This document shows, piece after piece, positions 8,816-40,679 of a stretch of 40,714 nt of DNA. A program made the position numbers and the translations under genes. This DNA is from Bacillota bacterium. Lineage in GTDB: Bacteria > Bacillota > Bacilli > Alicyclobacillales > SLC66. The DNA lies in assembly GCA_026627345.1 (NCBI GenBank), contig JAPNUP010000184.1, positions 1 to 40,714 on the forward strand, given 5' to 3'. A model generated the notes under the pieces. The model saw only the letters and a list, made by a program, of their open reading frames with translations, did no database searches and was not told where the DNA came from. How positions within the stretch are numbered: the first letter of the stretch is position 1; every line of letters starts with the position of its first letter.

Positions 8816-8849
8816 GACAGGCCTTTGCTCTTTCGAGCAAAGGCCTGTC
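8816..8849. terminator. Bidirectional terminator between the SASP and DUF421 genes
   Basis: A perfect 14-bp stem, ACAGGCCTTTGCTC with its complement, closes a TTTC loop. The plus strand continues CTCTTTATT; the minus strand continues CGCACTTTTTT. It can serve both convergent genes. Confidence 0.93.
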
Positions 8850-35930: not shown

Positions 35931-35967
35931 AAACCCCCGAGACTTTTTCGACGTCTCGGGGGTTTTT
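35931..35967 (+). terminator. Terminator of the His/Met-rich protein gene
   Basis: AACCCCCGAGAC and GTCTCGGGGGTT form a 12-bp perfect stem around an 8-nt loop, followed by a T-run (GGTTTTTGC). It starts about 27 nt after the stop codon. Confidence 0.95.
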
Positions 35968-39507: not shown

Positions 39508-39537
39508 TTGACAAACTCTAGCCTTACGTGCTAGAGT
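39508..39537 (+). promoter_or_regulatory. Promoter of the riboswitch-controlled gene
   Basis: TTGACA (39508-39513, 6/6), an 18-nt spacer and TAGAGT (39532-39537, 4/6). An 8-bp perfect inverted repeat, AACTCTAG at 39514-39521 and CTAGAGTT at 39531-39538, fills the spacer and part of the -10. Transcription would begin ~39544, 20 nt before the aptamer. Confidence 0.7.
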
Positions 39538-39538
39538 T
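39514..39538. promoter_or_regulatory. Palindromic operator candidate within the promoter
   Basis: AACTCTAG and CTAGAGTT are perfect complements separated by 9 nt, centred between the -35 and -10. A dimeric repressor bound here would block RNA polymerase. No T-run follows, so a terminator for xylA is less likely. Confidence 0.5.
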
Positions 39539-39565
39539 CACCTAAATGAAAGAGCTCGCTAAGGC

Positions 39566-39657
39566 AAGCAACGAACAGGCATACCGGGCGAAAGCCAGGG
39601 ACGCAAAGTTACAGACCTAAGGCCGCAAGGCTATGGTGGCTGAACTACCGAACGCTT
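39566..39657 (+). ncRNA. Cyclic-di-GMP-I (GEMM) riboswitch
   Basis: The conserved core is plain: GCATACC-GGGC-GAAA-GCC (GNRA tetraloop), GGGACGCAAAG at 39598-39608, the tetraloop receptor CCTAAG at 39616-39621 with TATGG at 39632-39636, a GCAA-capped stem between them, and ACTACCGA at the 3' side. AAGC (39566-39569) and GCTT (39654-39657) close the outer stem. The 3' strand runs into GTTTTTTG, which may form the expression platform, but I cannot tell ON from OFF. GG is present near the base equivalent to the G20 selectivity position, favouring c-di-GMP over cGAMP; that needs an alignment. Confidence 0.9.
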
Positions 39658-39690
39658 GTTTTTTGTTGCCTGGTGTTGCGCAAAGGGGAC

Positions 39691-40626
39691 ATGGGTATCG
39701 TGCAAGGATCCAAATGGGCAGTGATGGCGCTCTCGGCAACGATCGTCTTGACAGCAGGTAGTGCACCTAGTTTTGCGAAGGATCGCAGTTTTTCCGCTGT
39801 ACATACCAACGTCGCACAGGACAGGCACGGGCATGGTGATGGTGGGAATCATGGCGGTGGCTATGGCTATGGGAGTGGCTTTGGCAGTGGTGGTAATGGT
39901 GGTGGCAGCTACGGTGGCTTTGGTGGCAATGGTAATCATGGTGGTGGCTACGGCGGTGGTGGCAATCAAGGGAATGGCCATGGGAGTCAGAACGGGCAAG
40001 GCGCGGCCGTTGCAGGTACGAATCCTGCCGATGCCACTGTTCTTGCGAGCATTCAGAATCTGATCTCGACCTATGAACCACAGATCTCCAGCCTCGCCTC
40101 GGTGACGGGATCCGTTTACGGAAGTGACGGCACCTCTCCATCTGTCCTCTCATCCGTGTATGGCGGTGGGACCGTGACATCGTCGGTGTATGGTGGAGAT
40201 TCCGTTACCTCATCCGTCTATGGTGGCAATTCGTCTGCGTTGTTTTCAGGCACTTTGAATCCATTTTCGCTGAGTCAAATCAATAATGACTTACAGAGTC
40301 TCGTATCCTCTATATTCACCAACGACAGTTTCAATGGTATCCTCGCTGCGTTCAACCAGTTGCAATCCGACCTCGGAGCGCTGCAGCAATCCGTGAAAGC
40401 ATCGGAAAAACAGGCGAGCGAGTGGAACCGGCGCACACAAGGTTTGGAGAACAAACACGCGCAAGCTCTAGCGAGGCTACAGGCTGATGAGACGAGTCTC
40501 GAGACCGGATCTGTACCGAATCGAGAGTTTGGTAAGATCAGGGCGGATGCGCATCAGTATCAGGAGACCTGCGAACAGTTGATTCAGCTCTATCAGTCGA
40601 ATGAGAGCAGTAGCAGTAGCGACTGA
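39691..40626 (+). CDS. Secreted glycine-rich, coiled-coil protein under riboswitch control
   Basis: I do not recognise the family. The ~311-residue protein has a signal peptide (hydrophobic A-V-M-A-L-S-A-T-I-V-L-T-A, cleavage near S-F-A-K). A Gly/His/Asn-rich stretch of ~65 residues follows. Around residues 130-185, short repeats of the type S-S-V-Y-G-G recur four times. An Asn/Ser-rich region comes next, and the last ~85 residues have heptad-like spacing (Q-S-V-K-A-S-E-K-Q-A-S-E-W). This fits a matrix or appendage protein with a coiled-coil end. ATG 39691 lies 2 nt after AAAGGGG; GTG 39700, with an 11-nt spacer, is nearly as likely. A strong terminator follows. Confidence 0.75.
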   Translation: MGIVQGSKWAVMALSATIVLTAGSAPSFAKDRSFSAVHTNVAQDRHGHGDGGNHGGGYGYGSGFGSGGNGGGSYGGFGGNGNHGGGYGGGGNQGNGHGSQNGQGAAVAGTNPADATVLASIQNLISTYEPQISSLASVTGSVYGSDGTSPSVLSSVYGGGTVTSSVYGGDSVTSSVYGGNSSALFSGTLNPFSLSQINNDLQSLVSSIFTNDSFNGILAAFNQLQSDLGALQQSVKASEKQASEWNRRTQGLENKHAQALARLQADETSLETGSVPNREFGKIRADAHQYQETCEQLIQLYQSNESSSSSD

Positions 40627-40650: not shown

Positions 40651-40679
40651 AGCGGTGAGGTCTTCCTCGCCGCTTTTTG
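40651..40679 (+). terminator. Terminator of the glycine-rich protein gene
   Basis: AGCGGTGAGG and CCTCGCCGCT (one G-T-type mismatch) close a TCTT loop and are followed by TTTTTG. It lies 25 nt after the stop codon. Confidence 0.92.

Follow-up and report, generated by a model that had tools for sequence, protein, structure and literature searches.

Close to the 3' end of the window, by which we mean the whole analysed stretch of 40,714 nucleotides, a c-di-GMP-I (GEMM-I) aptamer is followed directly by a gene for an exported protein. In a cmscan run over the whole window, RF01051 was the sole match above the gathering score, at 39568–39652 of the (+) strand (74 bits against a cut-off of 35, E 7.4e-13), whereby the match covers the model at full length (1–87). 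The first aptamer hairpin has a GAAA loop and the tetraloop receptor reads CCUAAG/UAUGG, as claimed in the preliminary description of this DNA. Position 39579, which we take to be the equivalent of G20 in Vc2 from the alignment to the consensus and the Vc2 numbering, is a G. In the 3',3'-cGAMP variant family (GEMM-Ib) this position is typically A, and G20A reportedly shifts binding to cGAMP. Since the window has G here, the expected ligand is c-di-GMP and not cGAMP. The G20 position determines ligand selection, being c-di-GMP-selective when it is guanine (PMC9262584). Judged by its sequence, the window RNA belongs to the known c-di-GMP-I riboswitch class, and ligand binding is predicted.

The wider genome agrees with the c-di-GMP control that had been suggested for the locus. 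The source genome carries five c-di-GMP-I aptamers and seven GGDEF domains; the four aptamers besides the present one lie ahead of genes for PAS-HD, GGDEF-EAL, Spo0E-like and LCP (LytR_cpsA_psr) proteins. The Spo0E-like gene (L004, 1213–1527 of G000:C72) lies right behind its aptamer, a possible link from c-di-GMP to the control of sporulation. FlhA was found in the source genome, but a search of the 99% complete assembly for the flagellin N-terminal domain found none. Thus, the motile side of a motile-to-sessile reading is uncertain, and we do not claim that flagella are absent.

Upstream of the aptamer, a scan identified a plausible sigma-70-type promoter at 39508–39537 (+), which consists of TTGACA, an 18-nt spacer and the extended -10 element TGcTAGAGT (10 of 12 matches, with TG ahead of the second hexamer) and implies a transcription start at about 39544. 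The region upstream of a homologous gene in genome G001 contains an alignable extended -10, cgtGCTATAGTcag. The promoter spacer and -10 are overlapped by an inverted repeat, AACTCTAGC-N7-GCTAGAGTT (39514–39538). This is the palindrome of the preliminary description, whereby its arms are 9 bp and not 8 bp long. It had been proposed as the site of a protein regulator acting in series with the RNA sensor, to be sought near other c-di-GMP genes. The genome holds a single copy, and the regions ahead of the G009 and G001 homologs showed none, so that a role as an operator, and with it the protein regulator, is unsupported. A shuffled window yields about 0.9 such repeats with arms of at least 9 bp. 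Elsewhere in the window, perfect inverted repeats with arms of 15 bp and 13 bp lie at 8816–8849 and 35931–35965, the second of them intergenic. Behind the gene, an intrinsic terminator is located at 40651–40678 (+) with a 10-bp stem and T5 (the surrounding 41 nt fold at -20.6 kcal/mol). The gene appears to be monocistronic, and the contig ends 88 bases past the stop codon.

The exported protein and its relatives

The open frame spans 39673–40626 (+) and thus opens shortly after the aptamer ends at 39652, in agreement with the claim of a secreted-protein gene directly behind it. Possible starts are GTG 39673 (317 aa), ATG 39691 (311 aa) and GTG 39700 (308 aa). The likeliest is GTG 39700, because ATG 39691 is too near to the putative Shine-Dalgarno sequence AAAGGGG at 39682–39688. 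The deduced protein of 39700–40626 begins with a signal peptide (39700–39777, from sequence reading) that ends in SFA before K, a layout also seen in relatives. It is followed by a segment rich in Gly, His, Asn and Tyr (39820–40002; 61 residues, 54% Gly), four SV(T/L)(G/S)SVYG motifs (40096–40224), which are common to relatives, and a Ser/Gln-rich C-terminal helical region (40270–40605). The export signal, the Gly/His/Asn-rich segment and the S-V-Y-G repeats of the preliminary description were therefore recovered. Of its heptads, a loose helical periodicity stood up in residues 194–305 (3 of 500 shuffles were as strong), whereas the Pfam coiled-coil matches are weak and below the cut-off. Searches of Pfam and NCBIfam with the window protein yielded no family above cut-off, and its structure model, of low confidence also in the helical region, is unusable (pLDDT 39.7).

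Searching with the window protein by itself gave homologs in G009 (E 1e-9) and, weakly, in G001 (E 9e-4), both of which sit behind c-di-GMP-I aptamers, so that the suggested linkage of riboswitch and protein extends beyond the window. The aptamer ahead of the G001 homolog (L011, 2106–2189) fits best to the c-di-GMP-I-GGC family and has a GTGA loop, not GAAA. Reading of the 91 aptamer loci of the bacterial family showed that about a dozen of the genes following an aptamer encode small exported helical proteins. These comprise more distant proteins in G001, G002, G003, G005, G007, G008, G012 and G013 as well as likely members in G004, G011 and G015, the latter resting mainly on layout. All-against-all comparison connects most of the family proteins, whereby low-complexity and helical composition inflates weak scores. 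The motif [ST]VT[GSA][SQT]VY, of which the window protein has four related copies, is also present in G009, G007, G013 and two G001 proteins; in G005 and G012 it lies close to the C-terminus. In G002, G003 and G008 a second exported gene lies behind the first in the same direction and ends in the same kind of motif. Aptamer-led pairs of exported genes were noted in three genomes (L134, 474–1928; L135, 3564–5071; L136, 352–1938), where the second protein has a TVTGSVYG-like end, often after PPxPP. In scans of named genomes, P0001 gave no match and A4 matched three Bacillota MAGs. A further exported protein (L010, 1–1743, in G059) opens with DAVYG/DSVYG repeats that resemble the SVYG repeats of the window protein.

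With the A5 profile of the helical region, G003, G006 and G016 were found to encode proteins in which similar regions are joined to Ig-like domains. Big_1 matches were obtained in both tested fusion proteins, one of them above the Pfam cut-off. The fusion proteins L126, L127 and L128 are exported and have a signal peptide, a His/Gly-rich segment and a helical region of the similar kind, together with Ig-like domains at the C-terminus; no aptamer is listed beside them. The Big_1 proteins L126 and L128 resemble the window protein in the first three of these features, with A5 profile E values of 6e-10 and 4e-7 for the helical region, but contain an Ig-like domain that the window protein lacks. 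For the relative L118, a model with five helices was obtained (pLDDT 61, pTM 0.51), which in a PDB fold search gave no match better than E 0.08.

By sequence comparison, the pairing of RNA and protein is conserved in related bacteria, and the best explanation of the window protein is that it represents a divergent member of an uncharacterised exported-protein family under c-di-GMP-I control. It is plausible that the protein serves as a surface or matrix component, whereby "matrix" is based on composition and domain fusions, since the protein model is unusable. Alternatively, the protein might have a non-structural role, such as binding or inhibition after export, with the Gly/His-rich segment as a metal-binding part. 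The His-rich and acidic segments of relatives, the lack of a Pfam or NCBIfam family and a relative's model without a solved counterpart fit such a function; the Ig-like, adhesin-type fusions, the low-complexity Gly/Tyr segments and the paired exported genes of relatives speak against it, and we consider it possible, on the unlikely side.

The outer helix and the U tract

The interval between the aptamer end at 39652 and the gene was scanned for a conventional (+) strand hairpin terminator, and none was found. In this respect the window differs from Cd1 of Clostridioides difficile, an OFF switch with the same aptamer sequence and fold, G20 and tetraloop-receptor. Cd1 has a separate terminator hairpin downstream (strands T and H), whereas in the window an outer helix of the aptamer itself abuts a U tract. 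This helix, P0, is formed by CAAGC at 39565–39569 (+), extendable to 39561, and GCUUG at 39654–39658 (+), and is directly followed by the U6 tract at 39659–39664 (+), the candidate termination point.

The outer helix is conserved among the family loci. By a fixed criterion, 17 of the 91 loci have an outer helix with a T tract immediately behind it, compared to 4.8 expected from permuted flanks, where none of 500 was as high. For eleven loci selected by eye, the pairing energy was -9.7 kcal/mol with matched P0 strands and -7.6 kcal/mol with mismatched ones, a difference reached in 3 of 5000 permutations. Given this selection and the close relationship between some of the loci, the result is supportive and not independent. 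Free folding brings the 3' and upstream strands together in 9 of the 11 loci. The exceptions are G009, where an earlier T run was picked and the outer helix is unevaluated, and the window itself. Here, the minimum joins the 3' strand to the aptamer core, whereby GAACAGGC of the aptamer 5' core (39573–39580, +) pairs with 39654–39661 at a pair probability of about 0.99. The aptamer together with P0 lies 4.1 kcal/mol above this ligand-free minimum, a gap plausibly closed by the ligand given the tight binding of the class. The G001 relatives have neither P0 nor a U tract.

Outside the family, the layout of P0 and U tract was absent from 20 loci of a mixed set of nearest relatives (0/20). Across the rest of the phylum, up to 9 of 89 loci show something comparable; as this count has no permutation control, chance may account for some of them. 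A restriction to the family was therefore rejected, and the layout is a recurrent variant. No paper describing it was found in the open-access literature, although a description may exist.

Direction of switching

Three observations, namely the lack of a conventional terminator, the outer helix at U6 and its excess among the family loci, make an OFF switch the best reading. With P0 enclosing the aptamer and abutting U6, the aptamer itself would form the terminator loop. Binding of c-di-GMP would stabilise the closing P1/P0 helix and favour termination, whereas at low c-di-GMP the strands would be open or mispaired (GAACAGGC with GCUUGUUU, consuming part of the U tract) and the gene would be read. 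After export, the protein would probably become part of the cell surface or of an extracellular matrix, where the SVYG loops would serve as a shared motif for interaction. In C. difficile all seven functional class I switches are OFF (PMC6366702), and P1 is known as an unstable, ligand-linked helix (PMC9262584). From the sequence comparisons, OFF is probably the direction, at modest confidence. For the whole proposal, i.e., a c-di-GMP-I riboswitch that controls transcription of the exported-protein gene through P0/U6 as a ligand-stabilised terminator, with a product outside the cell and probably at the surface or in the matrix, we see about an even chance.

The main objection to OFF is the short distance from aptamer to U tract. 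Only some 16 nt separate the aptamer 3' end from the end of the U tract, and the aptamer would therefore have hardly left RNA polymerase when termination is decided. For this proximity, a 2024 review regards a ligand-stabilised terminator ("direct occlusion" of transcription) as unlikely (PMC10907184). The free-folding minimum of the window likewise argues against OFF, as do the G001 relatives without P0 and U tract and the existence of class I ON switches such as Bc2. That the locus represents a natural ligand-stabilised intrinsic terminator in the strict sense, in which the whole aptamer is the hairpin loop and ligand binding makes the terminator without strand exchange, is doubtful.

The preliminary description had implied the opposite direction, with the protein made in the sessile state, and the ligand-free minimum would suit an ON switch of the Bc2/pilM kind. 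In this case 39573–39580 would pair with 39654–39661 and terminate transcription, and c-di-GMP would free the gene. The pilM terminator also uses an aptamer strand, and 39573–39580 could serve as such a strand from inside the aptamer. Bc2, which lies ahead of cap in Bacillus thuringiensis, is an ON switch for an adhesin (PMC4933901). It resembles the window in that a class I aptamer immediately precedes an exported-protein gene under transcriptional control; Cap is an identified collagen adhesin, and the likeness does not imply protein homology. However, the pairing is not common to the other loci of the class, whereas the outer helix is. Moreover, three of the six U are lost to its stem, which leaves a poor tract, and P0 can still form with ligand bound. 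We thus rate an ON switch as unlikely, and the platform looks more like a ligand-stabilised terminator.

Another possible reading is that the c-di-GMP-binding aptamer chiefly affects translation or the stability of the RNA, the U tract being incidental or just a pause site. The start region is situated about 30 nt past the U tract, and pairing can occur between the aptamer 5' side and strands ahead of the gene, yet this pairing is no better than chance (207 of 2000 shuffles; 646 of 5000 permutations), which makes such a mode improbable. A second helix, in which the aptamer 5' side would pair with the region of the ribosome site, reached -22.4 kcal/mol but did not exceed shuffles and was rejected.

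Overall, the preliminary description was right on the parts of the locus, is unproved on function and was probably wrong on the direction and on a second, protein regulator. The riboswitch class is already known, the exported protein family is uncharacterised, and the platform constitutes a testable variant, compact and easily tested, in which the aptamer itself may be the terminator. Through this family, uncharacterised exported proteins are linked to c-di-GMP in Bacillota that have received little study. Should c-di-GMP switch these proteins off, they would belong to the low-c-di-GMP state, contrary to the usual view of glycine-rich exported proteins under c-di-GMP control as biofilm matrix.
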